Origin: Prolixibacteraceae bacterium
Lineage (GTDB): Bacteria > Bacteroidota > Bacteroidia > Bacteroidales > Prolixibacteraceae
Direction of reading: 5' to 3'
Length of the DNA stretch: 54,397 bases
Assembly (NCBI GenBank): GCA_025355875.1
Contig: JANXYV010000123.1
Location: forward strand, 1 to 54,397
Shown here: positions 3,375 to 19,063 of the stretch, in pieces
Layout: the number at the start of each line of letters is the position of its first letter
Numbering within the stretch: position 1 is the stretch's first letter
The notes under the pieces: model-generated
What the model was told of the DNA's origin: nothing
Seen by the model: only the letters and a program-made list of their open reading frames with translations
Databases searched by the model: none
Program-made: the position numbers and the translations under genes

Positions 3375-4445
3375 TTAATGACCGCTATTGATCAGTTGCT
3401 CACCCATGTAGCTTCCATAACTGGTGATGCAAAAGGATGAAATCAAGATCAATAAGCCGATAATCAGCACAAGATAAGTATTAGTTTTCACGCTTTTCCA
3501 CTCCTTCATCAGAACCCCAACAAGGTAACTAAAAAATATCAGCATCGACATGTGCAGTACCCAGCTGGCAAAACGAAAATTCCCCATCTGGACGTGCCCC
3601 AATCCGTAAAAGAAAAACTGGAAACACCACAGCGAACCTGCCAGTGCCGACCAAGTCCAGTTCCGCAGGATTTCCTTTCCTGAGATCACTTTTTGAGGAA
3701 TAAATTCATGCAGTGTTTTGTTCCTGATGCCTGCAATCACAAACCAAATCAGGTTGACCGCAAAACATCCCGAAGTTGAAATGATCATCTTGGCGTTTCC
3801 TTCGAAATTTCCGGCACCGTTCTTTGCAGCCATATCGGCAATGGGTTGTCCGTATTCGAGCGAAAGGTTAAAAACTCCTGAAAGCACACCGGCCACAATG
3901 GTCAGAAGCAAACCTACGGTCATGTTGAAGCCCTGATTGCCCGAAGAAAGGGAATTCAGGTCTTTCTCCTTTTTGAAGCCTGCCCATCCGCAAATGATCA
4001 CGCCCAACAATGAAAGAATCATTCCTGAAAGGACGATTCCTCCGCCTGGTTTTGAAAAGTATTCGCCAATTCCGCCAAAAACCAGCATGGGAAAAATGGT
4101 GCCCAGCACCGCTGAAATACCGATGGCCAAAGTATAGGTCAGCGAATAGCCGATGTGGTTGATCGCTTTTCCGAACGACATGCCGCCAAATCCGTAGGCT
4201 GCACCCAGCAGAAAAGCAATCCAGAAGGGTTTGGCAGGAGCGTCCGCCAGGATCCTGAAAAAGCCCGGAACCGTCAGCCATCCGACTACAAGCGGCATGA
4301 TGATCCAGGCGAAAATCGCCTGGGCCAGCCAAAAGGTTCCCCACGACCATTTTCGGGTTTGTGTTTTTGGAAGATAACAACTCGATGCCGAAATGCCGCC
4401 GATGGCATGAAGTCCGGTGCCGAGAATTGGATTAGAGCCAAACAT
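3375..4445 (-). CDS. rhaT: RhaT-family L-rhamnose/proton symporter
   Basis: 356 residues with about ten hydrophobic segments, matching the RhaT family (drug/metabolite superfamily): opening SNPILGTGLHAIGGISASSCYLP, then GAAYGFGGMSFGKAINHIGYSLTY and SLWCFQFFFYGLGHVQMG. Length is close to E. coli RhaT (344). RhaT imports L-rhamnose or L-lyxose with a proton; other 6-deoxysugars are possible, since the neighbours are fucosidases. It lies 29 bases after the URO-D gene and 14 before the beta-helix gene. No rhamnose isomerase or kinase is in the window, so catabolism must be encoded elsewhere. A 13-codon remnant of a second rhaT C-terminus survives at 11464-11505. Confidence 0.85.
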   Translation of the reverse strand: MFGSNPILGTGLHAIGGISASSCYLPKTQTRKWSWGTFWLAQAIFAWIIMPLVVGWLTVPGFFRILADAPAKPFWIAFLLGAAYGFGGMSFGKAINHIGYSLTYTLAIGISAVLGTIFPMLVFGGIGEYFSKPGGGIVLSGMILSLLGVIICGWAGFKKEKDLNSLSSGNQGFNMTVGLLLTIVAGVLSGVFNLSLEYGQPIADMAAKNGAGNFEGNAKMIISTSGCFAVNLIWFVIAGIRNKTLHEFIPQKVISGKEILRNWTWSALAGSLWCFQFFFYGLGHVQMGNFRFASWVLHMSMLIFFSYLVGVLMKEWKSVKTNTYLVLIIGLLILISSFCITSYGSYMGEQLINSGH

Positions 4446-4474
4446 AGTGAATTAGTTTAGAGGTAAAAACTAGG

Positions 4475-5509
4475 TTAAACCTGAAGAGCCAAAAACAAAG
4501 CCCGGACATTCTCAGGTGCAATATCCGGTAATATTGCTTCGTGACTGGGCGAAATAACCAGCCCGGTTGGAAACAATTCTTTTAATTCGTGAACCTTTTT
4601 TGCAACTTCTTCAGGCTTTCCGTTCACTAAAAGATTCTGAGCGTCAACTCCTCCGCAAAAGGCAACTTTTCCGGCGAAATGCTTTTTCAGATTTGGCGCA
4701 TCCATTTCACTGGCCAATGCCTGAACCGGATGAATAATATCAGCTCCCAAATTGCTCAAATCCTGAATGATCGGAAAGATTGAACCACAGGAATGGTGCA
4801 TAACGGTCAGTCCATAGCTTTTGGCCTGATCGATCAGTTTCTTAGTTCCTGGAAATACAAATTCTCTCAAGCTATCCGGATCGACCATCAGGCAGGTCTG
4901 ACTGCCAAAATCGTTGCCAATCAGCACGGCATCCAGCAATCCTTTGGTCGATTCATAGAAAATCTCGTTGGCTTTCAGATAGAAATCGGTAATCCGGTCG
5001 ATTACCGCCCGAAACATGTCAGGATTGGCAAGCATCACCATCAAAGCCTGCTCCATTCCGAAAGCGGCACAGGCATCCTGAAAATGCGCACTCCAAAGAA
5101 TTCCCATTTTGATCCGGTCTTTGGGTGCCAGAGCCACTCTTCTGAAAGATTCTTTGCGGTCGAGATAGTTTGATGGTTCGGGCCAGGCAAATTTATCAAC
5201 ATCGGAAACTTCCGAATAATCTTCGAAAAAGCCCGGAGCGGTTAGAGTTCGCTCATCGGGAGTGTCCAAATGACTGACCTTGGCAAAATTAAAGGCGCAG
5301 GCAATGTGATTTGACGGCGGGTAATTATAAGGTACTTCGATGGGATAAATATCATCGCCAATCGCTGTGCGAAGTTCATCAATGCTAGTTACCCCAAAGT
5401 ATTTGATCAATGCCGGTTCTGCCGATGGGACAGGCAACCCAAGCCACGAAGCTGGTCGATCAACCGGTTGGTGATGAATCGTGGCAAAAAAGCGTTCGCG
5501 GTGGTTCAT
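4475..5509 (-). CDS. Uroporphyrinogen decarboxylase-fold protein of the MtaA/methyltransferase-like branch
   Basis: 344 residues, URO-D superfamily TIM barrel. It is not HemE: the heme-pathway N-terminal signature is absent, and it shows the H-x-C ... C zinc pattern of MtaA/CmuA-like corrinoid methyltransferases (H239-S-C241 in VMHHSCGS, C285 in AFCGGVDA). Typical family blocks are IGNDFGSQTCLMVDPDSLREF and the C-terminal SPSHEAILPDIAPENV. Genes of this branch often sit in Bacteroidota sugar clusters without a proven function. Placed between a GH92-type enzyme and RhaT, it may act on a methylated or otherwise modified sugar. No corrinoid protein gene is nearby. The 5' 120 bases are duplicated at 11506-11625. 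Confidence 0.72.
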   Translation of the reverse strand: MNHRERFFATIHHQPVDRPASWLGLPVPSAEPALIKYFGVTSIDELRTAIGDDIYPIEVPYNYPPSNHIACAFNFAKVSHLDTPDERTLTAPGFFEDYSEVSDVDKFAWPEPSNYLDRKESFRRVALAPKDRIKMGILWSAHFQDACAAFGMEQALMVMLANPDMFRAVIDRITDFYLKANEIFYESTKGLLDAVLIGNDFGSQTCLMVDPDSLREFVFPGTKKLIDQAKSYGLTVMHHSCGSIFPIIQDLSNLGADIIHPVQALASEMDAPNLKKHFAGKVAFCGGVDAQNLLVNGKPEEVAKKVHELKELFPTGLVISPSHEAILPDIAPENVRALFLALQV

Positions 5510-6343
5510 GTTATCTTTTTTTTTGGCTTAAAAAATCAGTTTTTTGCTGGTGGTTTTGTCGTCGGATTTAACAACCAGAAAATAAATTCCTTTTGCAATA
5601 TCTTCCTTCACTGTAATGTCGAAGATTGCCCCGGATTGACTCAATTCAGTATTTTGAAGTTGACCGGTCAGGTCGAATAACTGAATTTCACAATGCCGGG
5701 TGTGTCCGAACTTTGACAGATTCACGGTAAATCTTTGGCTGTTTACCGGGTTTGGATAAACCACAATATCTTCTCCTTCAGCACATTCAGTAATTCTATT
5801 CGGTTGATTAGCCAGACATTTTCCCGGTGCTGTGCTGACTTCCACCTCAGCCAGCGAAAGGGTCGCTGTTCCCGGAATCTGAATCCGGATGTATTGTCCG
5901 CAAGATTTTACCTGAATGACATTTTTGGTCGCAGCCTTACCACTAAAATAATATTTCCAAATGGTAGGGTCAGCAGCCACTTTCACTGGATCATCGGTAG
6001 CGAATGGTTTTTTCGACACAAAAACATAGAAGTTGGAAAGTCGTTCTCCACAGCAATCGGTCCGGTTCCAGATATTGATAGAAACGATTGAATCCTGGTT
6101 ATTCCTGTCCCAGTTCCACCAGGGATTCAGGCTGTTTTCGTTGGTGTGAGTGACCGAACCCGAGGTGAAATTTCCGTTTGTATTGCCATCCACGGCGAGC
6201 GAAGCATTTCCGCTGTAGGCTGTCGAGGATTGTGTGACGAAGTCGGCCAGAACAATTTCAGGAATGGTGTTTTCAACCGGGAAACCAATGATTTCCTTTA
6301 ATACACCTCCATCAAATGATTGAATTGTTGAGCCTTTAAAATT
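5390..6343 (-). repeat. Duplicated block, copy B (uroD start, spacer, T9SS/F-lectin 3' end)
   Basis: This 954-base block matches 11506-12458 in the same orientation and almost without gaps. It covers the first 40 codons of the URO-D gene, the 18-base spacer and the last 271 codons of the GH92-type gene. Over the last 239 residues the two proteins have equal length, and by hand count about 191 are identical. Even the spacer (ggcttaaaaaatcag and the T-tract) is conserved. Confidence 0.85.
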
Positions 6344-9300
6344 TACAAAAACTTTATCATCGTGTATAACTTTAGTTTTCAGGAAAATAGTGAGCCTCGT
6401 CAAATCGCTTGTAACCTTATCAATTGTTGCATACGAATCATTGATTTTTACCGAGAAAAACGATGATTCCTTAGATACATCCTGTAAATTTTTATCCGGA
6501 ATTACCAATACCGAAAGACCATCTTCGGCGACTGAAGCAGAAACCGTTTTCGGGGGCGCACCCGGTGAAAGATTTTGAACAGGAGTACCTTCGAATGGAA
6601 GAAGAATACCCAAATCCTCACTTTTTATTGAATTGCCCGAATAGGAAAAAGTTAATTCATTGTTGCTGAATATTCTTTGAGATGTATATAGAATCAGTTC
6701 AGGAGAACTTGAGCTACTTTGTATTAAAGAATCAATAACGATCTCTGTTCCATCGGAAAAGAACGAAAAACTATTTTTCGACCAAGTTCCGGCAAGCAGA
6801 CTCTTTGATGCAGTAATTCGTATTTGAGAGCCTTCGCTGTTGGTTATTGCATTAACAATTCGAGGTGCTGAACCCGACAACAAATTCAAAATCAGTGTAT
6901 CGGTAAACGCTGTTAATTGCTTCCCGTAAACAGAGCGCACATTTCCCGGTTGGTAAGATGCACTTACAGTATCACTATTGTTGATTGGAGCCGAACTGTA
7001 TATAACGAAACTGTTTTCAGAAGCAATTAATTTCACTGAATCCACAGACACAGCATTCTTGTTGACTTTCAGAGAAAATCCTGTGAAATTTTCCTGCGGT
7101 TTTATTTCACCAGAGATATAAATTTTTACACCCTCCGAAGGATTGGTTACCGAACCTGTTTTAAAAATCGGCGGTTTTTCAGTTCCCCAGTTTTTATTAG
7201 GTTGTGAACCCATCCACAGTTCGAGTTTACCACCTTCGGCAATTTCTTTGTGATCCAACCAGCATTTGTTTATTGGAGTATCGTTGAGTGTAGCACGTTG
7301 AATATAAATATTTTCCGCAGAATTATTATAGGTTTTAACGATGAATTCTTTACCTGAATAGTACCGAGAATCAAGCGAAATTGTAATCTGATCGAAGAGA
7401 GGACTGGTAATTTCGTAGCGGTTATCGCCGGGACAAACCGGATGCAAACCACTGGCGGCTAATATGTACCAGGCCGACATCTGCCCAACATCTTCATTTC
7501 CAACCAACCCTTCAACCGAATTGTGATATGCCCTTTTACAGATTTGCCTGCTCCAGTACTGAGTTAACCATGGAGCTCCTAAACGATTGAATAAAAACGG
7601 AATATGATGTACCGGCTCATTGGCATGATTGTAATAATCATTCCAGATCATGTTTTCAGGGACTCTCTTAAACAATTCACTGAGGTCTGCCAAGGCTTTT
7701 TCCTGACCACCTAATAACTTACATAGCCCGGGAATATCATGTGGAACAAACCAACCCTGCTGATAGGGATTACTTTCAACACATCCATAATTCTGGGTGA
7801 GGCGTCCATTTGCAGGCCATTTTTCCCAGGTTCCATTATTCAGCCGTGGACGAAACCAATGCACCGAAGGATCGAAAATATTCTGGTAATACTTCGAACG
7901 GATATGGTATCTGGAAGCATCATCTTTTTTGCCGAGACTGTCAGCTAAAACAGCCATGCACCAGTCGGAATAAGCGTATTCAAGCAATAGGGAAATTGAA
8001 TTGCTGTACCCTGAATTGCTGTTTCCAAACATTGTGGAAGTGTTTTTAGCAAACAGATAAGCTTTATTCACATCGAATGTTCTGATGCCTTTGTTGTACG
8101 CATCAGCCATAACCGAAATCGCAGGATTACCAATCATACAGCCACTGTACGCATTCAGAAACTCCCAGCGTTCAAGGTATTTTGTTTTGTTTTCATCAGC
8201 AAGTTCAACCAATGAATTGAGCATGTCGCTTACCACAGTTGGATTGATGATCGTTTGCAATGGAAACTGACTACGGAAGACATCCCAGCCACTGAAAATA
8301 GTTCGTTTTACAAATTTGTCTGTTTTGTGAATCAGTCCATCGCCACCCGGATAGCTCCCATCCACATCGGTAAAACAACGGGGATCAATCATGGTATGGT
8401 AAAGCGCTGTGTAGAAAATTGTTTTATCTTCTTCGCTTTTCCCTTCAACAATCATCTTGCTCAAAGCAGTGTCCCAAAGCTTTGTGGCATTTTCTTTCAC
8501 ACGGTTGAAATTGAAATCGGAGATTTCCGAAAGAAGATTATTCTTTGCACCATCCATACTTACAAAAGAGATTCCTGCTTTCAGATATACTTTTTCATCC
8601 TTCAAAGTTTGAAATTCGGAATAGAATCCAAGGTGTTTTCCCTGTTTTTCGCGGCAATCTTTTTCGACTGTGGCATTTGCAACTGCCTCGCGGTATCGGT
8701 CGCTCTCAATATCTTGTCGTTTTCTTGTCCAGTTGTCAGGAATTACCGCACTCCAAACACCAAAATTGGTTAAGGGTTTACTGAATTTCGCATAGAAATA
8801 GACCGTATAATTCGGGTTTCCATCGCCATTACCCCAACCGCCACCTTCCGGTGTACATTTCATCCAACCCTGAATGGTAGAATCATTCACCACTTTGATG
8901 TATTGCTCTGTTGATGTACCGCCAACCCGACGGGCCAGATCGATTTGGATGCGCGATTGTTTGTTCTCGGGAAAAGTAAAACACAACATCCCGCTGTGTG
9001 GTGCAGCTGTACATTCTGCCCTGATCTGATAGTCTGTTAAGGTGGCAGCATAGTACCCGGCTTTTGCAATTTCATCTGTTTTGGAGTAGCGCGATCGATA
9101 ACCTTCTTCGGGGCGATCAATCCGTCCGGAGGAAGTTTGTAATACTCCCGTGGTGGGCATTACCAAAAAGTTGCCCAAATCGCCGAACCAACCAACACCG
9201 CTCATTTGTGTAAAAGCAAAGCCTTCGATGGTGGTATGTTCGTAACTGTAACCCGATCCATTATCGCCTCCGGTAATGGTATTTGGGCTTACCTGAACCA

Positions 9301-9478
9301 TTCCAAACGGAGTTGCCGCTCCAGGAAAAGTTTTACCCAGACCATGTGCTGCACCAGCCAACTGGGTATTTGTACTGGCTCCAATCAAAGGATTGATATA
9401 ATTTGCCAAATTCTTCGGTTGAGCCACAATGCAAAATTGAAGAATAAGGAACATAAATGCTGTTAAACCCGTCTTCAT
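5528..9478 (-). CDS. GH92-type alpha-mannosidase with SwmB-like repeats, F-type lectin domain and T9SS sorting domain
   Basis: 1316 residues. Signal peptide (about 1-19), then a GH92 catalytic region (about 22-760) with NYINPLIGASTNT, GFAFTQMSGVG, SGWDVFRSQFP, the acidic NEPVHHIPFLFN (E621) and GNEDVGQMSAWY (660-671), the GH92 hallmark; GH92 normally reads GNEDCGQ, and here Cys is Val. GH92 enzymes are calcium-dependent exo-alpha-mannosidases. After it come about three SwmB/Ig-like repeats (770-1075) and an F-type lectin (fucolectin, CBM47-like) domain at 1078-1217. The lectin shows H1111, the R-x-D-x4-R motif (R1139, D1141, R1146) and the adjacent cysteine pair 1142-1143. A T9SS sorting domain (YPNP at about 1241, ending SKKLIF) closes it. 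The C-terminal part is near-identical to that of the GH95-type gene. Surface or secreted. Confidence 0.88.
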   Translation of the reverse strand: MKTGLTAFMFLILQFCIVAQPKNLANYINPLIGASTNTQLAGAAHGLGKTFPGAATPFGMVQVSPNTITGGDNGSGYSYEHTTIEGFAFTQMSGVGWFGDLGNFLVMPTTGVLQTSSGRIDRPEEGYRSRYSKTDEIAKAGYYAATLTDYQIRAECTAAPHSGMLCFTFPENKQSRIQIDLARRVGGTSTEQYIKVVNDSTIQGWMKCTPEGGGWGNGDGNPNYTVYFYAKFSKPLTNFGVWSAVIPDNWTRKRQDIESDRYREAVANATVEKDCREKQGKHLGFYSEFQTLKDEKVYLKAGISFVSMDGAKNNLLSEISDFNFNRVKENATKLWDTALSKMIVEGKSEEDKTIFYTALYHTMIDPRCFTDVDGSYPGGDGLIHKTDKFVKRTIFSGWDVFRSQFPLQTIINPTVVSDMLNSLVELADENKTKYLERWEFLNAYSGCMIGNPAISVMADAYNKGIRTFDVNKAYLFAKNTSTMFGNSNSGYSNSISLLLEYAYSDWCMAVLADSLGKKDDASRYHIRSKYYQNIFDPSVHWFRPRLNNGTWEKWPANGRLTQNYGCVESNPYQQGWFVPHDIPGLCKLLGGQEKALADLSELFKRVPENMIWNDYYNHANEPVHHIPFLFNRLGAPWLTQYWSRQICKRAYHNSVEGLVGNEDVGQMSAWYILAASGLHPVCPGDNRYEITSPLFDQITISLDSRYYSGKEFIVKTYNNSAENIYIQRATLNDTPINKCWLDHKEIAEGGKLELWMGSQPNKNWGTEKPPIFKTGSVTNPSEGVKIYISGEIKPQENFTGFSLKVNKNAVSVDSVKLIASENSFVIYSSAPINNSDTVSASYQPGNVRSVYGKQLTAFTDTLILNLLSGSAPRIVNAITNSEGSQIRITASKSLLAGTWSKNSFSFFSDGTEIVIDSLIQSSSSSPELILYTSQRIFSNNELTFSYSGNSIKSEDLGILLPFEGTPVQNLSPGAPPKTVSASVAEDGLSVLVIPDKNLQDVSKESSFFSVKINDSYATIDKVTSDLTRLTIFLKTKVIHDDKVFVNFKGSTIQSFDGGVLKEIIGFPVENTIPEIVLADFVTQSSTAYSGNASLAVDGNTNGNFTSGSVTHTNENSLNPWWNWDRNNQDSIVSINIWNRTDCCGERLSNFYVFVSKKPFATDDPVKVAADPTIWKYYFSGKAATKNVIQVKSCGQYIRIQIPGTATLSLAEVEVSTAPGKCLANQPNRITECAEGEDIVVYPNPVNSQRFTVNLSKFGHTRHCEIQLFDLTGQLQNTELSQSGAIFDITVKEDIAKGIYFLVVKSDDKTTSKKLIF

Positions 9479-9486
9479 ATGATTTT

Positions 9487-9756
9487 TTATTTAATTAAGA
9501 TTCTTAGCGACAGCGCATATTTCGAAGGCAAGGTTTTTGGAAGTTCAACTAAAGTCCCTTTTTCGTCTTGGGCAAATTTCAGTTTCTGATAGGTGCCAAG
9601 CAACTCAATGGATTTGATCTGGTCAATAAAGTCTTCCAGTTTCAGGCGGGAGTTGATTCCGAAAATAGCGTCATCGGTTATTTCTTTCTGAGTCAATTTT
9701 TGCACTTGAAAGTAAAAATTTTCGCCTTGAAAGTGCTGAATTAGCAGATGACTCAT
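9487..9756 (-). pseudogene. Remnant of a GH29 fucosidase 3' end
   Basis: An 89-codon open frame. Residues 46-86 (from IKSIELLG through TLVELPKTLPSKYA) align without gaps to residues 452-492 of the GH29 enzyme at 15493-16989, with 36 of 41 identical. The first 45 residues match nothing I recognise. No catalytic domain or signal peptide remains. It sits 8 bases upstream of the GH92-type start, just as the intact GH29 sits 10 bases upstream of the GH95-type start. This supports an origin by tandem duplication and later loss. It might still be translated, but I treat it as a decayed gene. Confidence 0.75.
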
Positions 9757-9778
9757 TTTACTTTTTCATGGATTAAAT

Positions 9779-11395
9779 TTATATTTTAAGGATATTCTTG
9801 CCTGGTTTTATCTTTTCGTTGGTTACCATTCCTTTGTATTTTATTTTTAAGTTGTAATTACCATCCGAAACAACATTAACAACCAAACCGTTTTCGGTCG
9901 GAACAGCAATCAGTGAAGTGGAGTGACCATTGAATCTCAGATTTTTTATTCCACAACGTTTTGTGCTTAGAATGTTCCAGACCAGTTCATTTTTTGAAGC
10001 ATCGGGCTTTAAGCCAATGGCGTATTCAATCAGATACATGATGGGTGCAATCCCCGTCCAGCCAACAAAATCTTTCACTGATTGCGCTCCACGGGTTAGC
10101 GAATCGGTGGCATAATTCTCCCAGTATGTGCCGGTTTCCAAATACACTTTTGTTACATTTTCAAGGTGATTCATTGCAATTGCATGAGCCAGAGAATCAT
10201 ATCCATATTTTTCCAACCCTCGAATAATCATGGTATTGGTGGGCGACCATACCCCACCTGTCCAGTAGCCTTTCTGATTGAACCCTTTTTGATCAGCCGC
10301 TAAGGTAGGAACCCTGTGTACACGGTTAAAGGTTTCTTTATTCTCCAGCTCCTCAACCAATTTTGCCGCCTGAGATTTAGACGGCACCTGAGCCAGCATC
10401 GGCCAGAATGCGCTGATTGATTTTACAGGTATCGCATTTCCACGAACGGTCAAATCAAAATAGAATTTGCTTTTTTCGTCCCACATCAGTTGATTGATTC
10501 GTTTGGTCAATGCTTCTGCTTCCTTTTCAAACTTACGGCTCTCTTCCGATCGTTTCAGGATTGATGCGATTTCAGACAGGTTTCTGGCGAACAGAACCAT
10601 TTCCGAAGAGATATCAACGGCAGTTCCTCCTCCGGTAAGGTAATCGTTTCGGGGCGAATCGTCCATCCCTGCCCAATCGGTCAGATACAATCCATTCCCT
10701 TGTTCAAGGTACTTCCGGCAAGCCAGGTAGCATTGTTTCAAAGGCTCAAAAACTGATTTCAATCGTTCCTTATCTCCTGTGATGCGGTAGCTTTCTAACT
10801 CTGCCCAAGCCAAAATCGGGTGATTTAAAGCGTCGAGGGTTAATACCGGATTGGGGGTTGGTGTTTCTTTGCCTACATATTCAACATCCCATGATTTTCC
10901 CGTATACCGGTTTCCGTAGCGACTGAAAAGTGGTTTATTTTCCACATTCCTCCAACCAGCATAATCGATACCGGTCGTCCGGTTAATTTCGCGGCATATC
11001 TCTCCGTCGGCATGTTGTTTCGCATAAAAATTATCAAGGGTTGAAATCCCGGGAACGAACGGATGTCCATAGTTGCAAAACATGGTCAAAAAGCCGCTGT
11101 CCCAGAGAAATATGTTGCTATTAAAAGCGGCATCCATGTACTGAGATACAAACCCATTTTCAGCCGTCGGCTCGTGAAAGTTTTTAAATGCCAACTCCCA
11201 GGTTTTCCAGTAACTTTCGACAAAAGTGCTGTCCTGATCGTAAATTGGAACAGGCAATTTTGAACGCATTTCAGAAAATACCGGGATTGGCGTTTTCACG
11301 TACTGTTTTTTTGAAAAGTAATTTCCCTGTTCCTGTGCTTGAGAGCATACAGTTGCAAAAAGGAATACAACAATCACTTGATAAAACGTTTTCAT
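9779..11395 (-). CDS. GH63/MGH1-like (alpha/alpha)6-barrel glycoside hydrolase
   Basis: 538 residues from the ATG at 11393-11395, chosen because it gives a clean signal peptide (MKTFYQVIVVFLFATVCSQA); an in-frame start nine codons earlier would spoil it. The body is an (alpha/alpha)6 barrel of the GH63/GH37 clan. Visible blocks are NIFLWDSGFLTMF, TDWAGMDDSPRNDY, KGYWTGGVWSPTNTMIIRGL and TYWENYATDSLTRG, closest to the MGH1-like group (mannosylglycerate hydrolase, YgjK-type alpha-glucosidases). The substrate cannot be told; an alpha-linked gluco- or mannoside fits the setting. No sorting domain, so probably periplasmic. It lies between the remnants of the duplicated unit (9487-9756 and 11464-11625), so it was either part of the original unit or inserted later. 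Confidence 0.78.
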   Translation of the reverse strand: MKTFYQVIVVFLFATVCSQAQEQGNYFSKKQYVKTPIPVFSEMRSKLPVPIYDQDSTFVESYWKTWELAFKNFHEPTAENGFVSQYMDAAFNSNIFLWDSGFLTMFCNYGHPFVPGISTLDNFYAKQHADGEICREINRTTGIDYAGWRNVENKPLFSRYGNRYTGKSWDVEYVGKETPTPNPVLTLDALNHPILAWAELESYRITGDKERLKSVFEPLKQCYLACRKYLEQGNGLYLTDWAGMDDSPRNDYLTGGGTAVDISSEMVLFARNLSEIASILKRSEESRKFEKEAEALTKRINQLMWDEKSKFYFDLTVRGNAIPVKSISAFWPMLAQVPSKSQAAKLVEELENKETFNRVHRVPTLAADQKGFNQKGYWTGGVWSPTNTMIIRGLEKYGYDSLAHAIAMNHLENVTKVYLETGTYWENYATDSLTRGAQSVKDFVGWTGIAPIMYLIEYAIGLKPDASKNELVWNILSTKRCGIKNLRFNGHSTSLIAVPTENGLVVNVVSDGNYNLKIKYKGMVTNEKIKPGKNILKI

Positions 11396-11463
11396 TTCAG
11401 GTATATTTAATTGATCTGACATAAATAATTCCTACTATTCGCAAGCCTTTCAATGCTATTTCG

Positions 11464-11625
11464 TTATGTGCCGCTTCCAATAATCTGTTCGCCAATGTAA
11501 CTGCCTACCCCAAAATGTTTCAGCAAAGGTTTTTCAGCCGACGGAACTGGCAATCCCAGCCACGAAGCCGGACGATCAACCGGTTGGTGATGAATCGTGG
11601 CAAAAAACCGTTCGTGGTGGTTCAT
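11464..11625 (-). pseudogene. In-frame uroD-rhaT fusion remnant (53 codons)
   Basis: Starting at the ATG 11623-11625, codons 1-40 copy the start of the URO-D protein (MNHHERFFATIHHQ through LLKHFGV, against IKYFGV in the intact gene). Codons 41-53 (GSYIGEQIIGSGT, then a stop) copy the last 13 residues of RhaT (GSYMGEQLINSGH). All the sequence between the two gene ends, about 2 kb by comparison with 3375-5509, is gone, leaving an in-frame fusion. It lies 17 bases after the GH95-type gene, where the second uroD-rhaT pair should be. No function is expected. Confidence 0.85.
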
Positions 11626-12458
11626 GTTATCTATTTTTTGGCTTAAAAAATCAGTTTTTTGCTGATGGTTTTGTCGTCGGATTTAACAACCAGAAAATAT
11701 ATTCCTTTTGTAATATTTTCCTTAACCGTAACATCAAAGATTGCCCCTGATTGACTCATTTCAGTATTTTGAAGTTGGCCGGTCAGGTCGAATAACTGAA
11801 TTTCACAATGGCGCGTATTTCCAAACTTCGACAAATTCACAGTAAATCTTTTTCCGTTTACTGGGTTTGGATAAACAACGATTTCTTCACCTTCAGCAAA
11901 CTCGGTTATTCGGTTCGGAATGTCGGCCAGACATTTTCCGGGAGCCGATGTCACTTCAACTTCGGCCAGCGAAAGTGTGGCTGTTCCGGGTATTTGTACC
12001 CGAAGATATTGTCCGCAGGAATTTACCTTGATGGTTGTTTTAACTCCGGCTTTTCCGGTAAAGAAATACTTCCAGACAGCAGGATCTTCTGCCACTTTCT
12101 TCGGATCATCAGTTTTAAATGGCTCTCTGGAAAGAAACACATAAAAGTTCGACAGCCGTTCGCCACAGCAATCAGTCCGGTTCCAGATGTTGATTGAAAC
12201 AATCGAATCAAGCTTGTTCAGGTTGTACATCCACCAGGGATTTTGGGTATTTTCCTGGGTATGCGAAACCGAACCCGCCGGAAAGTTTCCGTTCGTATTT
12301 CCATCTACGGCCAGCGTTGCCAAACCGCTGTAGGCTGTCGACGATTGGGTCACGTAGTTGGCCAGAACAATTTCAGGAATGGTGTTTTCAACCGGGAAAC
12401 CAATGATTTCTTTTAAAACGCCTCCATCGGTTGATTGAATTGTACCGCCCGAAAAGCT
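11506..12458 (-). repeat. Duplicated block, copy A (uroD start, spacer, T9SS/F-lectin 3' end)
   Basis: Counterpart of 5390-6343 in the same orientation. It holds the 40-codon uroD remnant, a 17-base spacer and the last 271 codons of the GH95-type gene. The match fades upstream of the VLKEIIGFPVENTIPEI block into more diverged SwmB-like repeats. Confidence 0.85.
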
Positions 12459-15400
12459 CACCACGATGACATCACCAAACTTTAATTTGTTGGCAAGCGC
12501 CAGACTGACCACATTAAATGAATTACTCACGCTGTTGATCTTAATCGTAGTACCACTGATTTTAACCTTGAAATAAGGCAGTTGTGTGCGAATGTCGAGC
12601 AGACTTTTATCGAAAGTTAACTGCAAACCACTTTCCTTATTGATGATGATTCCGCGGAAAATTGTAGGCGGCATTCCGTGTGATATATTTTGAACCGGAA
12701 ACGATACAAATGCCTTCAGACTGCCATTGTCAGAACTTTGTATCTCGGTTCCGTCGTAAGAAAGTTCCAGATGATCTTCGAGGTAAAACCCTTTGGCAGT
12801 AGTCAGAATGTACCGGGCCGAATCTCCTGTTTTCAAAGCAACTGAACTGAGTGCAAGAACCTGACCAGAAATGGTATTCTTTAAAATCAGTGACGAAGGA
12901 AGTCCCAGTTTCATTTTTTTATTGAACACAAGTTCAACCTGAGAACCTTCGAAATTGCTTTTTGCTTCCACCAGGCGAGGCGCTGCGCCAGCCAATAAAT
13001 TATCAATCGCCAGTTTGGTTATGTCCTGAAGCGGAATACTATCCGGGGAAAGTAGGTTCCCCTTTGAATAATTCAGGAGGAGTTCATCGGTATTTAGTAG
13101 CTCATTTTCAGGAATAAGTTTTAAAATTGAATCGTTTGAATTATAGCCTGATCCCTGAATTTTGAGCGTATCAACTCCATTTTTCAGGATCACTATTCCG
13201 GAGAAAACTGTTTGATTAATAACCGGCTCCGAAAGTTTCAACTGAATGGCTTTGGCGTCACCTTCCACTTTGGCTGATTTGAATTCAGGAGCGGTAGCCG
13301 CAGTTAAAATGTACTTTTTGCCGGCTTCGGTTGGGAATGTAAATTTATCGCCGTCTTTGGTCACTTTCAGCATGTTGCCAGATTCATCTTTCACAATCAG
13401 GAATTTGCCTTTCCACGGACAAAACATCGTGCAGGTTTTCCCTTTTTCGCTGGAAAGTGAGACATCGCTAATGATTCCGCTCCTGTAATTTGCCGAAACC
13501 AGAAATGCGCCTTCCGTTCTGAAATCCTTGATTGCAATGTCTTTCCAGCGCGATGGAACTGCCGGGAAGATCCGAATAATGCCATTCCAGCTTTGCAAGA
13601 GCATGTAGTCGATGCTTTCAACGGCCGAAAGCGGAGTTTCGATGACTGCACCGCCACTTTCGTTGTACATGGTATTGGCCTGAATCAGGTTGTGCGATTT
13701 CATCAAATCGAGCGTCGAAATGGCTTTTTCGCCATTGCCCAGAGTCGAATACATCGAAGAACCAATCGTAAAAGTGTAACCAGCGTATCCGTTGGCCTGT
13801 GTGAGGGTCTGCCAGCGTTCGAGCGACTTTTCGATCAATGCCTTTTCGGGTTTCCCTTGTTCCGGGTTGATCAAATGATACGGGTAGATGCCGATCAGAT
13901 GCGAAAAATGCCGGTGCCCCATGTCAAAACCCTGATTGGCATCCACACGGAAACCATTGTCATCGGTCGGGAATGGGGTCAGATTGGTCAGTTTTTCCTG
14001 CCAATTAGCTTTTTGTGCATCATTAAAACCAAACTCCTTATCCATATCCAGCAGGGTTTGAAACACCCATTTGGCCGACATCAATCCGTAGTTGGTATCT
14101 TTGTTCAGCGCCTCGCCGCCATTGTCTTCATATTCCGGCGAGCGTGAGGGATCGAGATGATATTTTCCATCTGCTCCTTTTTTGAGTTTCGAACTCAGGA
14201 AAACCGCATTGTCTTTCAGCATCGGGAAAAGCGCTTTACCTAGGACATCATCACCCGAATATCTCCAGTATTTCCAGTACATCTGTAGCAACCAGGGCAT
14301 GTTTCCAAACTCCTCTCCCCAATTGCCTTTTCCGTCGTAGGTTGATGATCGTCCAACCGTGATTCCGACCCCATTGGCGTTGGTTTTGAAGGCGCCCGAC
14401 TTGTAAATCCGGTCCATTCCGTTAATAAACGCGCGTCCGGCATCGAGTTTATTGGCACTGTACATCGGGAAATAGGCCAGTTGCACATTCAGGTTCCACC
14501 ACACTGCTGCCCAGGCTGATTCCCAAATCCAGGTACCCTGCGTATCCATGATCAGATCCGAATTTTCGGACGATGCACAGGCAAATTTGTACAATTGCAG
14601 GTACCAGAATTTCTGCCAGTACGCGTCTTGCTTGATTTCCAGGTAACTCGACTGCATGTAATTGTGCCACCATTCCTGATGCCTGGCGGTGATTGCCTGA
14701 TAACCTTCAGAAACAGCGTCCTGAACCCGTTTCACCGCATCAGCTGTTGCATTGGTGGCTGACGTTGCGGTATTGGCCACATCGCTGGTTCCGATAGCCA
14801 CATACAAAACCTGCGTTCCGTCGGGTTCTTTCATCAGTTGCGAAGCCACCACATGCGCGCCCTGACTTTTCATTTTATTGATGACCAAATCGATATCGCC
14901 TTGTTTCGTTAGCACTGGCTTGGGTGGAAGCTGACTGGCATATTCTGCCACATTTTTCTTTTCCAGATAAAAGCGTGGCGTAATTCCCCATTCTTCCCTA
15001 ACTCCAAGTTTTGCATCAAGCTCCCCATTTTCACCCTTGAGAACCACGATAAAAACCAGGTTTTTCCGGTCATCAAAAGCACGCCAATTGATCGATCCCT
15101 TGTCTGTGGTTATTACTCCACTGGTTTCTCCGTCGTAGAGGTTCATGCGCATGGTTTGTCCTGACGTTTTGCCAAGCGGGGCGATGATCATATTTCCGGC
15201 GTACACCTTTGAGTCGCAGTATTCCCAACCCGGAATTGAATAATGCTCAATGGCCTTGTAATGCGACAGCAACATCCGGATTCCGTTTGGATTTTTTGAA
15301 TCTTTCATGATCATGGCGCCTTGAACGCCGTCGCCAATAAATGCGCCGTTGAAGAAATTGGTATCCAGGTTGTTTTTCCAAAGCAGGTCCTGTTTCGATA

Positions 15401-15482
15401 TAAAATCGGGCCAATTGATGGTTTGCGCCTTTGTTAAAGCAAAAGACAAACAGATAAGAATTGATAACAGATATTTTTTCAT
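11643..15482 (-). CDS. GH95-type alpha-L-fucosidase/galactosidase with F-type lectin and T9SS sorting domain
   Basis: 1279 residues. Signal peptide (MKKYLLSILICLSFALTKAQ). The catalytic part (about 21-730) follows the GH95 plan: N-terminal sandwich with NFFNGAFIGDGVQGAM, an (alpha/alpha)6 barrel with WWNLNVQLAYFP, the acidic SPEYED (448-453) and HRHFSHLIGIYP (523-534), then the C-terminal domain (RIFPAVPSRWKD). GH95 removes alpha-1,2-L-fucose or alpha-L-galactose with inversion. Three SwmB-like repeats (about 735-1038) precede an F-type lectin domain (1041-1180) with H1074, R1102, D1104, R1109 and an adjacent cysteine pair. The T9SS domain has YPNP at 1204-1207. It follows the GH29 gene by 10 bases, so the two probably share a transcript. 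The exact linkage is not predictable. Confidence 0.82.
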   Translation of the reverse strand: MKKYLLSILICLSFALTKAQTINWPDFISKQDLLWKNNLDTNFFNGAFIGDGVQGAMIMKDSKNPNGIRMLLSHYKAIEHYSIPGWEYCDSKVYAGNMIIAPLGKTSGQTMRMNLYDGETSGVITTDKGSINWRAFDDRKNLVFIVVLKGENGELDAKLGVREEWGITPRFYLEKKNVAEYASQLPPKPVLTKQGDIDLVINKMKSQGAHVVASQLMKEPDGTQVLYVAIGTSDVANTATSATNATADAVKRVQDAVSEGYQAITARHQEWWHNYMQSSYLEIKQDAYWQKFWYLQLYKFACASSENSDLIMDTQGTWIWESAWAAVWWNLNVQLAYFPMYSANKLDAGRAFINGMDRIYKSGAFKTNANGVGITVGRSSTYDGKGNWGEEFGNMPWLLQMYWKYWRYSGDDVLGKALFPMLKDNAVFLSSKLKKGADGKYHLDPSRSPEYEDNGGEALNKDTNYGLMSAKWVFQTLLDMDKEFGFNDAQKANWQEKLTNLTPFPTDDNGFRVDANQGFDMGHRHFSHLIGIYPYHLINPEQGKPEKALIEKSLERWQTLTQANGYAGYTFTIGSSMYSTLGNGEKAISTLDLMKSHNLIQANTMYNESGGAVIETPLSAVESIDYMLLQSWNGIIRIFPAVPSRWKDIAIKDFRTEGAFLVSANYRSGIISDVSLSSEKGKTCTMFCPWKGKFLIVKDESGNMLKVTKDGDKFTFPTEAGKKYILTAATAPEFKSAKVEGDAKAIQLKLSEPVINQTVFSGIVILKNGVDTLKIQGSGYNSNDSILKLIPENELLNTDELLLNYSKGNLLSPDSIPLQDITKLAIDNLLAGAAPRLVEAKSNFEGSQVELVFNKKMKLGLPSSLILKNTISGQVLALSSVALKTGDSARYILTTAKGFYLEDHLELSYDGTEIQSSDNGSLKAFVSFPVQNISHGMPPTIFRGIIINKESGLQLTFDKSLLDIRTQLPYFKVKISGTTIKINSVSNSFNVVSLALANKLKFGDVIVVSFSGGTIQSTDGGVLKEIIGFPVENTIPEIVLANYVTQSSTAYSGLATLAVDGNTNGNFPAGSVSHTQENTQNPWWMYNLNKLDSIVSINIWNRTDCCGERLSNFYVFLSREPFKTDDPKKVAEDPAVWKYFFTGKAGVKTTIKVNSCGQYLRVQIPGTATLSLAEVEVTSAPGKCLADIPNRITEFAEGEEIVVYPNPVNGKRFTVNLSKFGNTRHCEIQLFDLTGQLQNTEMSQSGAIFDVTVKENITKGIYFLVVKSDDKTISKKLIF

Positions 15483-15492
15483 GGAGAGGTAT

Positions 15493-16989
15493 TTATTTTT
15501 TCTTCAGCCCCGAAATCCGGAGCGATACGGCATGTTTTGAAGGCAAAGTTTTTGGAAGTTCTACCAATGTTCCCTTTTCATCTTGTGTAAATTTCAGTTT
15601 CTGACTAGTACCAACTAACTCAATGGATTTGATTTGATATTTGTTTCCCGGAAGCGAAGTGATCCGAATTTTCTGATCGGTTGGAATAGCCATGGAAATC
15701 GCGTAAAGTGTATCGCTTTTAGTGGTGAACCGAATGTCTTCTGAAGTATAAGCCGGAATCTGGTCGTTGAAATCGCCCTTTCCGTCAGATGTTGTGCCTT
15801 CACCAAAATTCGTCCACGGCCGGGTGCCATAAATCGCCTCACCATTTACGGCCAGCCAGGCACCCATATCAAGCAAAACGGTCTTCACTTCTTCCGGAAT
15901 TGTGCCATCGGGCCGTGGCGGAATATCCAGTAAAAGTTGTCCGTTTTTGCTCACAATCGTAATCAAATAATCAATCAGCATCTGCGATGTTTTGTACACC
16001 GGATTCATATTGTAGCACCAACTGGCATTGTCAATCGACGCATCAGTCAGCCAGGGAAATTCCTGAATGTTGTCCAAGGCTCCCTTTTCCAAATCGAGGA
16101 TTGCCGAATTGGCAGGCAATTCACCGACTTTGTAAGTCATCGAAACTTCTTGTTTCCAATCCAATCCTTTGTTGTAATAGTAGGCCATCAGATTCCGTTT
16201 AATTGAATCAGGAATGAACGAAAGACGGCTGTCGAACCAAACCATATCAGGCTGATATTTAGCAATAACTTCCATGGTTTTGTTTTTCCAAAGCTGAAAC
16301 CATTCCAGACTTGGCGCCGGGTTTGGATTTTTGTAGTCAAAGGCACCGGGGAGAACTTTCGGACCATACAATCCGGCATTTTCAGGATTGGCACAATCGG
16401 TATTCGGGTCCCAGGTTGGATACCAGCCCCACAGCCATTGATGATGAAAAGTCGCGATGAATTTCATTCCTTGTTTCCTGATGGCAGATTCCAGTTCACC
16501 AACAATGTCGCGTTTCGGACCCATGTTTTTCGCATTCCATTTGTTCAACTTGCTGTTCCACATCGAAAAACCATCTGCGTGTTCTGCCACCGGACCGGCA
16601 AATTTTGCTCCTGACCGGCGGAACAGATCAGCCCATTCATCAGCATTAAACTTTTCAGCTTTGAACATCGGGATGAAATCCTTGTATCCAAATTTGTCAG
16701 GTTTACCATAGGTTTTCAAATGATGATCGTAAAATTGCGTTCCCCAAACCAGGGTATCGATATACATCCAGCGCGGGTACCATTCGCTTCCGAAAGCCGG
16801 AACAGAATAAACTCCCCAGTGAAAATAGATACCGAATTTGGCATCCTGAAACCATTCAGGATAAGGATGTTTGGTTAATGATGCCCAGGTTGCATCATAT
16901 TTTTGCGGAGAATCCGGATTTTTAAGGTCTTCAGAATTGCTTACCAATACGGCACAACAAAGTATCAAGGTGTAGAATATTCTTTTCAT
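15493..16989 (-). CDS. GH29 alpha-L-fucosidase
   Basis: 498 residues. A short N-terminal signal region (MKRIFYTLILCCAVLVSNS) precedes the GH29 TIM barrel: WFQDAKFGIYFHWGVYSVPA, EHADGFSMWNSK, HHQWLWGW and PDMVWFDSRLSF, whose D253 is the expected nucleophile. The C-terminal beta domain (about 390-498) ends in the piece that is repeated at 9499-9621. GH29 enzymes retain configuration and release alpha-L-fucose. No sorting domain, so periplasmic rather than surface-bound. It starts 2 bases after the stop of the second GH29 gene and ends 10 bases before the GH95-type gene, so the three form a tight operon. Confidence 0.9.
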   Translation of the reverse strand: MKRIFYTLILCCAVLVSNSEDLKNPDSPQKYDATWASLTKHPYPEWFQDAKFGIYFHWGVYSVPAFGSEWYPRWMYIDTLVWGTQFYDHHLKTYGKPDKFGYKDFIPMFKAEKFNADEWADLFRRSGAKFAGPVAEHADGFSMWNSKLNKWNAKNMGPKRDIVGELESAIRKQGMKFIATFHHQWLWGWYPTWDPNTDCANPENAGLYGPKVLPGAFDYKNPNPAPSLEWFQLWKNKTMEVIAKYQPDMVWFDSRLSFIPDSIKRNLMAYYYNKGLDWKQEVSMTYKVGELPANSAILDLEKGALDNIQEFPWLTDASIDNASWCYNMNPVYKTSQMLIDYLITIVSKNGQLLLDIPPRPDGTIPEEVKTVLLDMGAWLAVNGEAIYGTRPWTNFGEGTTSDGKGDFNDQIPAYTSEDIRFTTKSDTLYAISMAIPTDQKIRITSLPGNKYQIKSIELVGTSQKLKFTQDEKGTLVELPKTLPSKHAVSLRISGLKKK

Positions 16990-16991
16990 TT

Positions 16992-18038
16992 CTATTTCAG
17001 GTTTCCGGTCAATTTACTTTTAATTTCCATCAAATGTTTGACGTACAGATCATCAATCAGTCCGTCGCCTCCCGGTGGAACATCCAGCAAATAATTGGTG
17101 TTGCGCGAATTGCATAAATTAATCATGTCAGCTATTTTTCCGGCTTCCTGAAGTTTGATTTCACCGGTATGCCAAAACCAGCGACCTCCGGCATCAATAC
17201 AATCGCAAAGCTCCGAAATATCTTTGTTTTCAACTGGTGGAACCGCCTTTTCAGGATTAACCTGCATGCGGTAAGGATATTCATAGCCAATAATATCGGA
17301 GTTCAGGTAATTATCCGAGTTATTGGCCAGCACAATGCAATTGGGTTGTAATTTTTGAATGAGCGCCTTAAGCTGTAACCAATATTGTCCGGTATATTTG
17401 TTCGAATACTGATCAAACCATAGCAAATCGATGGGTCCGTAATTGGTAAGCAATTCCGCAATTTGCTTTTCGATGAAACCTTCGAAATCGCCTTCGGCTT
17501 CAGCGGGCAAACCATGGAGGTCTTTCTGGCCGGACTTCAGCGAATTCCCGAAAGAACCGGAGAAATCGCCGGGAAGACAATAATACAAGCCAACTTTTAC
17601 TTTTGCCTTGCGGCAGGCATCCACATATTCGCTCACAATATCTGCTTTCCCATTCCTGAAATTTTTAAAGGCAGTGATGTCGTGAGTGGTGTATTTACTG
17701 TCCCACAAGCACCAGCCACCGGTGTGTTTGACGGTCAGAACGGCATAATTCATTCCTGCAGACTTGATGGTTTTGGCCCATTGTCTGCAATCGAGCTTCG
17801 CCGGATTAAAAAGCATCGGGTCTTCGTAGCCGGTTGCCCATTCCTTGTCGACATAAGTTCCCATGTTGAAATGAAGGAACATGCCGTATTTCCAGCTGGC
17901 AAATTCCTGCTGCTTTTTCAGGAGCAATTCAGGGGCCTGAGGCTGAGCGGCTGCAGACGCAAATGATAACATGAAAATTAGCGAGACTATCAGGCTGACC
18001 GATTGTCTTAATGATGAGTTTGGGGATGTTTTGCGCAT
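16992..18038 (-). CDS. GH29-like alpha-L-fucosidase
   Basis: 348 residues from the ATG at 18036-18038. That start gives a signal peptide (basic MRKTSPNSSLRQ, then a hydrophobic run to FASAAAQP); a longer in-frame extension has no signal. Barrel-only GH29: FASWKYGMFLHFNMGTY, TVKHTGGWCLWDSKYTTHD and PIDLLWFDQYSN with D209 as probable nucleophile, ending LLDVPPGGDGLID. It is shorter than the neighbouring GH29 because it lacks the C-terminal beta domain, and the two are clearly different subfamilies. It is the first gene of the minus-strand island, divergent from the AraC-type regulator. Confidence 0.88.
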   Translation of the reverse strand: MRKTSPNSSLRQSVSLIVSLIFMLSFASAAAQPQAPELLLKKQQEFASWKYGMFLHFNMGTYVDKEWATGYEDPMLFNPAKLDCRQWAKTIKSAGMNYAVLTVKHTGGWCLWDSKYTTHDITAFKNFRNGKADIVSEYVDACRKAKVKVGLYYCLPGDFSGSFGNSLKSGQKDLHGLPAEAEGDFEGFIEKQIAELLTNYGPIDLLWFDQYSNKYTGQYWLQLKALIQKLQPNCIVLANNSDNYLNSDIIGYEYPYRMQVNPEKAVPPVENKDISELCDCIDAGGRWFWHTGEIKLQEAGKIADMINLCNSRNTNYLLDVPPGGDGLIDDLYVKHLMEIKSKLTGNLK

Positions 18039-18166
18039 GGTATTTTGGTTAGGTTTAAAAACAGAAAGCGTATCCATTACAAAAAAACAAAAGTTGTAAG
18101 CTGATTTATTGTACATTTCCGACATTCTTTAGTATTTTTCCGATCATTTCAACTTTGTCTAAAGTT
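18039..18166. promoter_or_regulatory. Divergent control region between the fucosidase operon and the AraC-type gene
   Basis: 128 AT-rich bases separate the two divergent start codons. This must hold the leftward promoter of the hydrolase operon and the rightward promoter of the regulator, and is the natural site for AraC-type autoregulation and activation. I found no perfect TAnnTTTG element on either strand (cAacTTTG at about 18150 and tACaacTTTTG-like sequence on the other strand are only near matches), so I do not place a -7 box. Confidence 0.5.
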
Positions 18167-19063
18167 ATGAATTCATTTGGCATTCCAATCGATCTGAAAG
18201 TCAAGCTGCTCAATGTGGCCAGCTGCGAACTCGATTCGTCGTGGAACTACCATGGACTGGTCAGTCATTTTCCTCGTATCTATTTAATAACCAGAGGTGA
18301 AGGATACATTTTCCCGAACAACCAGAAGATCAGGCTTGAACCTGGCAAACTTTATTTGATACCCAGCCAGATTCCCTGCAGCTATGCTTGTCCCGAATCG
18401 TTGTCTCAGTATTACCTGCACTTTACCGTTGAATTGACCGAGCAATTGAATATTTTCGACATTTATCCGTACTCTTTCAGTTCCTTCGCGTCAGAAAACG
18501 ATCTCCGGCTTTTTGAACGTCTCATCGAAATCAATCCGGATTCGGCACTTCGGGTACTCGATCCGGCGGTTTACCAAATCAAAAACTGGGTAAACAGCCC
18601 CGGCGACAATTCTTCCATCTCACAGCACATCGAAACCAATGGCTTGATTTTGCAGCTTTTCTCACGCTTCCTGAAAAACGACACTCCTGCAAACTCTTTT
18701 ACCACCAAGCCTGGCAGCCGGTTCAACGAAATCCTGGCCTTTATCCGGAATAACCTCGAAAAAGAAATTTCAATCAATGGATTGGCTTCGCGATTAAAAA
18801 TGTCTCCCGATCATTTTACCCGTTTGTTCCGGAAGGAAACCGGCGCTGGTCCGGTGGAATACATCATTCAGAAACGCATCGAAAAAGCCCAGCTTTTACT
18901 GGTGGTTACCAATTTGTCGGTGAATGAGATTCTGGTAAAGACGGGCTTCAACAGCGCATCGTATTTTATCCGGATTTTCAAAACCATCAATGGTCTGACG
19001 CCGCTCGAATACCGGAAGTTTCATCATTTGCTTCATGCAAAGTTTTATTCGAACGAACTGTAA
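18167..19063 (+). CDS. AraC-family transcriptional regulator
   Basis: 298 residues from the ATG at 18167; a TTG four codons upstream is in frame but less likely. N-terminal cupin-like sugar-sensing half (about 20-130: ITRGEGYIFPNNQKIRLEPGKLYLIPS). C-terminal double helix-turn-helix (about 200-290): ISINGLASRLKMSPDHFTRLFRKETG, then LSVNEILVKTGFNSASYFIRIFK and the closing LTPLEYRKF. Members usually activate an adjacent sugar operon when a sugar binds. It is divergent from the fucosidase operon and 76 bases upstream of the GH2 gene, so it likely controls both. The ligand may be a deoxysugar, but that is inference. Confidence 0.88.
   Translation: MNSFGIPIDLKVKLLNVASCELDSSWNYHGLVSHFPRIYLITRGEGYIFPNNQKIRLEPGKLYLIPSQIPCSYACPESLSQYYLHFTVELTEQLNIFDIYPYSFSSFASENDLRLFERLIEINPDSALRVLDPAVYQIKNWVNSPGDNSSISQHIETNGLILQLFSRFLKNDTPANSFTTKPGSRFNEILAFIRNNLEKEISINGLASRLKMSPDHFTRLFRKETGAGPVEYIIQKRIEKAQLLLVVTNLSVNEILVKTGFNSASYFIRIFKTINGLTPLEYRKFHHLLHAKFYSNEL

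Follow-up and report, generated by a model that had tools for sequence, protein, structure and literature searches.

Two probable collinear copies of a GH29-hydrolase-uroD-rhaT unit in a Prolixibacteraceae contig, with reciprocal losses and a likely exchange of one catalytic part

Contig JANXYV010000123.1 of a Prolixibacteraceae bacterium (assembly GCA_025355875.1) was analysed over positions 1 to 54,397, hereafter referred to as the window. A minus-strand operon runs from position 18125 to position 3375, which, with a probability that we put at roughly 70%, is best explained as a fucose/rhamnose-type glycan operon (AraC-type regulator, GH29, hydrolase, uroD, and rhaT) present as two collinear copies that have diverged, differ in one catalytic part, and were cut at different places. 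According to Pfam, the genes follow in the order GH29, GH29, a GH95-type enzyme with a type IX secretion system (T9SS) tail, a remnant, a GH37/GH63-like gene, a second remnant, a GH92 enzyme with a T9SS tail, URO-D, and RhaT. Copy A denotes the upstream unit and copy B the downstream unit.

Self-comparison of the whole window using blastn at E ≤ 1e-3 yielded exactly two off-diagonal matches, both direct and in the same order and on the same strand, as expected for a tandem unit. The longer one comprises 939 nucleotides of the minus strand (5390-6328 in copy B versus 11506-12443 in copy A; 80.6% identity, one gap, E 0) and covers the hydrolase tail, the spacer, and the start of uroD. The shorter one comprises 116 nucleotides (9506-9621 versus 15521-15636; 82% identity, E 8e-26) and corresponds to the 3′-end of GH29, so that, read along the operon, the end of GH29 comes first, then the end of the hydrolase with the spacer, and finally the first part of uroD. 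Within the longer block, where the common tail begins, lies an exact repeat of 51 nucleotides (6245-6295 and 12360-12410, 6115 nucleotides apart). In a DNA search of the organism's own genome, the tail region was found at these two places alone. The two collinear copies proposed in a preliminary description of this DNA are thus borne out by repeats that lie in register and by remnants in the expected places. That description had likewise pointed to agreement in order, strand, and spacing. Order and strand do agree, and the spacer between hydrolase and uroD (17 versus 18 nucleotides) can be regarded as inherited because its sequence is near-identical in both copies. In contrast, the spacing between GH29 and hydrolase (10 versus 8 nucleotides) is not inherited, since homology stops at 9506, 19 nucleotides before the end of the truncated GH29 reading frame. 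The truncated uroD is 82% identical at the nucleotide level to the intact uroD of the window, as compared with a maximum of 75% among 18 orthologue sequences, one of which (L127) was read out of register; the same gene, read as L005, gave 69%. As no nearby species carries the tail, a diverged donor may account for this closeness as well.

The remnants account for what is missing from either copy. Copy A comprises an intact GH29 gene (15493-16989, minus strand, 498 amino acids; Pfam Alpha_L_fucos 1.4e-100 and Fucosidase_C), a hydrolase (11643-15482, minus strand), and an open reading frame (ORF) of 53 codons (11464-11625, minus strand), in which uroD codons 1 to 40 are in frame with the last 13 codons of rhaT. 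In copy B, an ORF of 89 amino acids (9487-9756, minus strand) harbours what is left of GH29, followed by a hydrolase (5528-9478, minus strand) and the intact genes uroD (4475-5509, minus strand, 344 amino acids; Pfam URO-D, 84% identity to G026) and rhaT (3375-4445, minus strand, 356 amino acids; Pfam RhaT 1.8e-46). The RhaT end of the 53-codon ORF, GSYIGEQIIGSGT, agrees with the intact RhaT C-terminus, GSYMGEQLINSGH, at 9 of 13 residues, each being directly followed by the stop codon; among the 4414 further 13-mers of the window that directly precede a stop codon, the maximum is 5 residues. For 7 of the 9 common residues the synonymous codon differs, and RhaT relatives carry the same C-terminal motif. 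A blind DNA alignment of the rhaT piece, which is too short for this purpose, gave no signal, as 412 of 500 null segments scored equally well. An alternative in which the uroD codons of this ORF run into unrelated sequence and one junction cut both copies was dropped when the protein comparison revealed the rhaT C-end. At the protein level, the reduction of uroD-rhaT in copy A to 53 codons therefore holds as first described, and the presence of the RhaT C-end directly after the uroD codons indicates that approximately 2 kb between uroD and rhaT were lost from copy A. Conversely, GH29 of copy B is cut down to about 41 C-terminal residues, which are joined to a leader (9622-9756) without relation to GH29. 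Neither remnant contains an internal stop codon. As read from the sequence, the pattern of loss is truly reciprocal and results from two separate deletions.

According to Pfam, the hydrolase of copy A consists of a GH95-type part (residues 1-730), an immunoglobulin-like (Ig-like) stretch termed IgA (731-1021), and a carbohydrate-binding module (CBM)-like domain with a T9SS tail (1022-1279). The hydrolase of copy B comprises a complete GH92 part (residues 1-765), the Ig-like stretch IgB (766-1058), and a CBM-like domain with a T9SS tail (1059-1316). The catalytic parts, GH92 and GH95, are unrelated and lie between homologous flanks, as expected for a domain replacement. The preliminary description had inferred a catalytic swap with the ends kept, a claim that stands with respect to the unrelated catalytic parts and can be extended, as copy B appears to be the exchanged one. 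However, close homology (81% amino acid identity) is limited to the final ~258 codons, which encode the CBM-like domain and the T9SS tail, and IgA and IgB are 31% identical.

The direction of the replacement was derived from relatives. The GH92 part was compared with its 19 best family matches besides the window's own, more distant matches, some of them in ORFs of ~970-1030 amino acids, lying outside this comparison. Over most of residues 1-765 it is 72-79% identical to 11 stand-alone GH92 proteins and 57-63% identical to 8 more. In 19 of 19 cases the match stops at residue 760-766 and the ORF of the relative ends 0-6 residues later. In a tree of 20 rows, the GH92 of the window falls into a strongly supported group (100/99) that otherwise comprises one genome of the same genus and ten g9 genomes, with no clear placement inside this group. 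IgB, in turn, is 63% identical to the Ig-like stretch of a GH95 protein of G021, a genome of the same genus, as compared with at most 34% for the other family matches listed from other genomes. When the alignment of the copy B hydrolase to this protein was left free to start earlier, it began at residue 768, right after the end of GH92. The same GH95 protein also matches the catalytic part of copy A, at 55% identity. Hence, given that the GH92 relatives stop where the GH92 part does and that IgB has its best match in a GH95 protein, the ancestor of the copy B hydrolase was likely a GH95-type protein with IgB, and GH92 the newcomer on this chassis.

We then estimated the age of the copies from the codons common to both. 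The tail (258 codons) gave a synonymous divergence (dS) of 0.95 and a ratio of nonsynonymous to synonymous divergence (dN/dS) of 0.12; the corresponding values are 0.80 and 0.12 for the uroD remnant (42 codons, of which two lie at the fusion point and 40 belong to uroD) and 1.14 and 0.06 for the GH29 remnant (39 codons). Across 92 remnant codons we observed 14 amino acid differences. In a rough model of a neutral branch, 14 or fewer changes occurred in 0 of 2000 runs at 0.2 or more substitutions per site, in 15% at 0.1, and in 93% at 0.05. Given the low dN/dS, the small number of amino acid changes, and the lack of stops, the cuts are taken to be recent relative to the divergence of the copies, which by these estimates diverged for long as working genes and were cut only afterwards. 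The complementary decay noted in the preliminary description is consequently real as reciprocal loss through two deletions, but not as slow decay following an old duplication, because the remnants display none of the relaxed selection, stop codons, or frameshifts of decaying pseudogenes.

Taken together, these data suggest the following course of events. Both copies would once have contained a GH95-type secreted T9SS hydrolase between GH29 and uroD, which for copy B is deduced from its relatives. In copy B, a complete GH92 gene, minus its stop codon alone, would then have replaced the GH95 catalytic part. Sequence comparison shows that the natural C-terminus of GH92 continues in frame into the Ig-CBM-T9SS chassis, for which a recombination is presumed. 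Both copies would have diverged for a long period under the selection indicated by a dS near 1 and a low dN/dS, before copy A lost ~2 kb from uroD codon 40 to the rhaT end and copy B lost GH29 except for its ~41 last residues; the GH37/GH63-like gene sits at the junction between the copies. The outcome would be one working set of GH29, uroD, and rhaT along with two secreted hydrolases, GH95-type and GH92-type, that carry the same CBM and export tail. The likely use of this arrangement would be that two secreted debranching enzymes widen the substrate range of one operon.

Several observations weigh against this reading. First, IgA is 34% identical to the Ig-like stretch of the G021 GH95 protein and 37% identical to the best of the family matches listed, and the identity of copy A to the G021 protein drops past residue 740 from 47-63% to 22-42% without ending there. 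Either IgA was also exchanged, or it evolved much faster, or the GH95 part is of different origin; duplication and a single swap do not suffice to explain it. A reciprocal exchange, in which IgA would point to a GH92 partner, was considered and left no sign, as the best matches (37% and 34%) are the GH29-type and GH95 proteins of G021; the other matches are known by length alone. Second, the preliminary description had suggested a search for the ancestor in related genomes. The genomes searched yielded neither an undecayed two-copy relative nor a one-copy ancestor with this hydrolase tail, and the CBM-T9SS tail was present in 1 of 393 genomes of the order, namely the organism's own, and among 175 fetched loci in own-genome loci alone. 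Third, the neutral model assumes equal base rates, and dS is near saturation. Finally, synonymous differences in the tail affect 5 of 42 codons at its two ends versus 70 of 164 in the middle, the ends having been picked after inspection. The exact run of 51 nucleotides was matched in 24 of 20000 codon-column permutations, and the longest run of synonymous identity alone gave p 0.023. At the edges of the block, a degree of gene conversion or recent exchange is therefore likely, which may blur the age of the copies.

With regard to the origin of the second copy, two scenarios are about equally likely, each with somewhat less than an even chance. In the one, a circle or fragment of 6.1 kb from a diverged relative would have entered an intact GH29-GH95-tail-uroD-rhaT operon by one crossover in the tail block, delivering a tail, the uroD-rhaT remnant, the GH37-like gene, the GH29 end, GH92, and IgB. 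Both remnants would then be the newcomer's, and the reciprocal loss would reflect an operon split by insertion. Divergence of the remnants under selection would be natural for separate lineages, and the exact match of 51 nucleotides is found at one edge of the block. Moreover, a crossover in the common block, tested at one position, restores the full-length resident genes for GH95 (1279 amino acids), uroD (344), rhaT (356), and GH29 (498), so the locus could revert to one copy. However, the newcomer must already have borne both deletions, and no donor was found in the family and order searches, two of which scored at most four candidates per genome. In addition, the GC content at third codon positions of the segment (0.31-0.44, with IgB alone standing out at 0.31) lies partly within the range of the remaining minus-strand genes of the operon (0.41-0.55).

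In the other scenario, the whole unit would have been duplicated in place, with both copies kept for long, the swap in copy B, and then two recent deletions; this corresponds to the course given in the preliminary description, except that the loss is recent instead of gradual. In line with this, the GH29 of copy A has no family relative above 50%, the order search revealed no other carrier of the tail, and tandem paralogues beside uroD exist elsewhere, e.g., at L127 with 86% identity over 1006 nucleotides. This scenario requires, however, that two redundant full units were maintained under purifying selection up to a dS near 1, only for both to be cut recently.

An exchange of tails alone, i.e., unrelated neighbouring hydrolases with homogenised 3′ tails and the uroD and GH29 fragments as by-products, is improbable. 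It has a parallel in G021, where neighbouring hydrolases combine different catalytic parts and dissimilar Ig-like stretches with a common CBM6-T9SS tail, but it leaves unexplained the in-register GH29 3′-end before GH92 and the rhaT C-end after the truncated uroD, and is disfavoured by these collinear remnants, whose dS is similar to that of the tail (GH29 and uroD remnants alike). Equally improbable is a metagenome assembly artefact joining two strain variants of one locus at the exact 51-nucleotide repeat: the genome consists of 230 contigs and is presumably of metagenomic origin, but the longest common run at GH29 (17 nucleotides) is too short for a join, and neither the in-frame fusion of uroD with rhaT nor the GH37-like gene would be accounted for.

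Returning to the reading as two collinear copies, the closest arrangements in relatives are single. uroD was detected at E ≤ 1e-60 in 23 of 140 genomes of the family. Of 90 loci, 52 were viewed, and the uroD loci span at most ~1.5 kb on either side, so that a GH29 gene farther upstream would escape. The scan of public species genomes used uroD alone and would not reveal a tail or a GH29 gene located elsewhere. The gene before uroD differs between genomes (13 loci read). A hydrolase-free GH29-uroD-rhaT operon with a divergent AraC-type gene is present in G061, G062, and G063. It resembles the operon of the window in order, strand, and regulator (uroD 61% in G061 and 64% in G063, rhaT 60-61%), and these genomes also contain the closest family relatives of the copy A GH29 (49-50%, none above 50% in the family search). 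It differs in that a single copy is present, which lacks both an intervening hydrolase and a tail of this kind. The uroD gene of G062 (L124 8346-9382) is broken into two overlapping frames in an otherwise intact operon, while it is whole in G061. Two other genomes contain direct repeats no more than a few kb from uroD (L127 1665-3862, in G035; L081, 1-1149 and 5485-6651), which are 1.0-1.2 kb in length and 84-86% identical.

In G021 (L118), two neighbouring secreted hydrolases, GH29-type and GH95, share a common CBM6-T9SS tail (888-1402 and 4717-5230; 515 nucleotides, 79.4% identity, 70% at the amino acid level), whereas their catalytic parts differ and their Ig-like stretches are 32% alike. 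This locus resembles the window in its GH95 protein with an IgB-type stretch and in neighbouring hydrolases with one tail; it differs in the type of tail, in the lack of a uroD or rhaT match in the 14 kb read, and in that only a partial ORF separates GH95 from the end of the contig. Among 72 loci of at least 6 kb (some overlapping, with 10 direct repeats of at least 200 nucleotides), alike tails with different catalytic parts were found in two G021 loci alone, which represent the same place. The G021 case suggests that neighbouring hydrolases with one tail recur. It is rather unlikely, though conceivable, that the export tail serves as a recombination platform, on which near-identical 3′ tails would let whole catalytic genes dock onto a secretion chassis and be exchanged, and from which the 6.1-kb segment between the tails could exit by one crossover, rendering the enzyme content switchable.

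Between the copies lie two elements that the preliminary description did not mention, namely a GH37/GH63-like (MGH1-like) gene (9779-11422, minus strand, 547 amino acids) and the leader of the 89-amino acid ORF (9622-9756). The GH37-like gene is rare in the family, being present at E ≤ 1e-80 in 2 of 140 genomes, its own included, with the closest family relative (G037) at 51-57% identity. Over 29 residues, the leader weakly resembles part of a 589-amino acid protein of G037 (L122 3657-5426), with a score of 69 as compared with 55 for the next best of 592 long ORFs and 45 for the best of 200 shuffles (tblastx E 0.001). This protein, for which Pfam and NCBIfam gave no family at the thresholds applied, is encoded three genes before the G037 homologue of the GH37-like gene. 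As a lead, the leader may thus be a scrap of the neighbourhood of the GH37-like gene. The junctions were also inspected for traces of mobile elements, although no dedicated insertion-sequence search was made. Besides itself, the junction at 9610-9785 gave matches of 21-50 nucleotides in 16 other genomes of 140 (E 6e-4 to 0.01), which we judged to be due to chance, and the junction at 11405-11530 gave four other matches in its own genome, each with E 0.3. The junction peptides had no match in Pfam or NCBIfam.

The first gene of the operon, encoding a GH29-type protein of 377 amino acids (16992-18125, minus strand; Pfam Alpha_L_fucos 2.7e-42), lies outside the repeat. The AraC-type regulator gene (18155-19063, plus strand) diverges from the operon, and a homologue of 43-44% identity occupies the same place in G061, G062, and G063. 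As for the copy B gene referred to as uroD, the best stretch in Pfam URO-D covers residues 119-340, and its NCBIfam matches are MtaA/CmuA-type methyltransferases alone, every one below the cut-off, so that the product may be either a genuine haem-pathway decarboxylase or a methyltransferase of the URO-D superfamily. In 8 of 13 relative loci read, a short rhaM-like gene was seen by eye 3′ of uroD, with Pfam support for L030 alone; these neighbours point to a possible role of uroD in sugar use. The window has no rhaM between uroD and rhaT.

Both partial duplication and the shuffling of domains among modular carbohydrate enzymes are well known. The present locus shares with tandem-duplicated operon units that underwent partial deletion in bacterial genomes the collinear repeats on the same strand, with each copy retaining a different part. 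Unlike them, it combines old copies (dS about 1) with recent cuts, and in one copy the same slot houses another enzyme family. Likewise, as in the domain shuffling of modular T9SS carbohydrate enzymes of Bacteroidota, the catalytic part appears exchanged at a domain boundary, while the Ig/CBM/secretion tail is kept; here, however, a complete stand-alone GH92 would have replaced GH95 in a known slot, with the direction given by a same-genus GH95 protein that bears an IgB-type stretch. No report of this arrangement turned up in the literature searched, which covered few subscription journals. We regard the locus as a well-preserved case of ordinary genome tinkering with a good evolutionary record rather than as a new kind of system. 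It would provide a readable intermediate of how a sugar-degrading operon gains an enzyme, with a complete gene placed in front of an existing secreted substrate-binding protein and surplus genes being cut. As the like-tail pattern also occurs in another genome, there with a different tail, tail-guided swaps become a testable idea.

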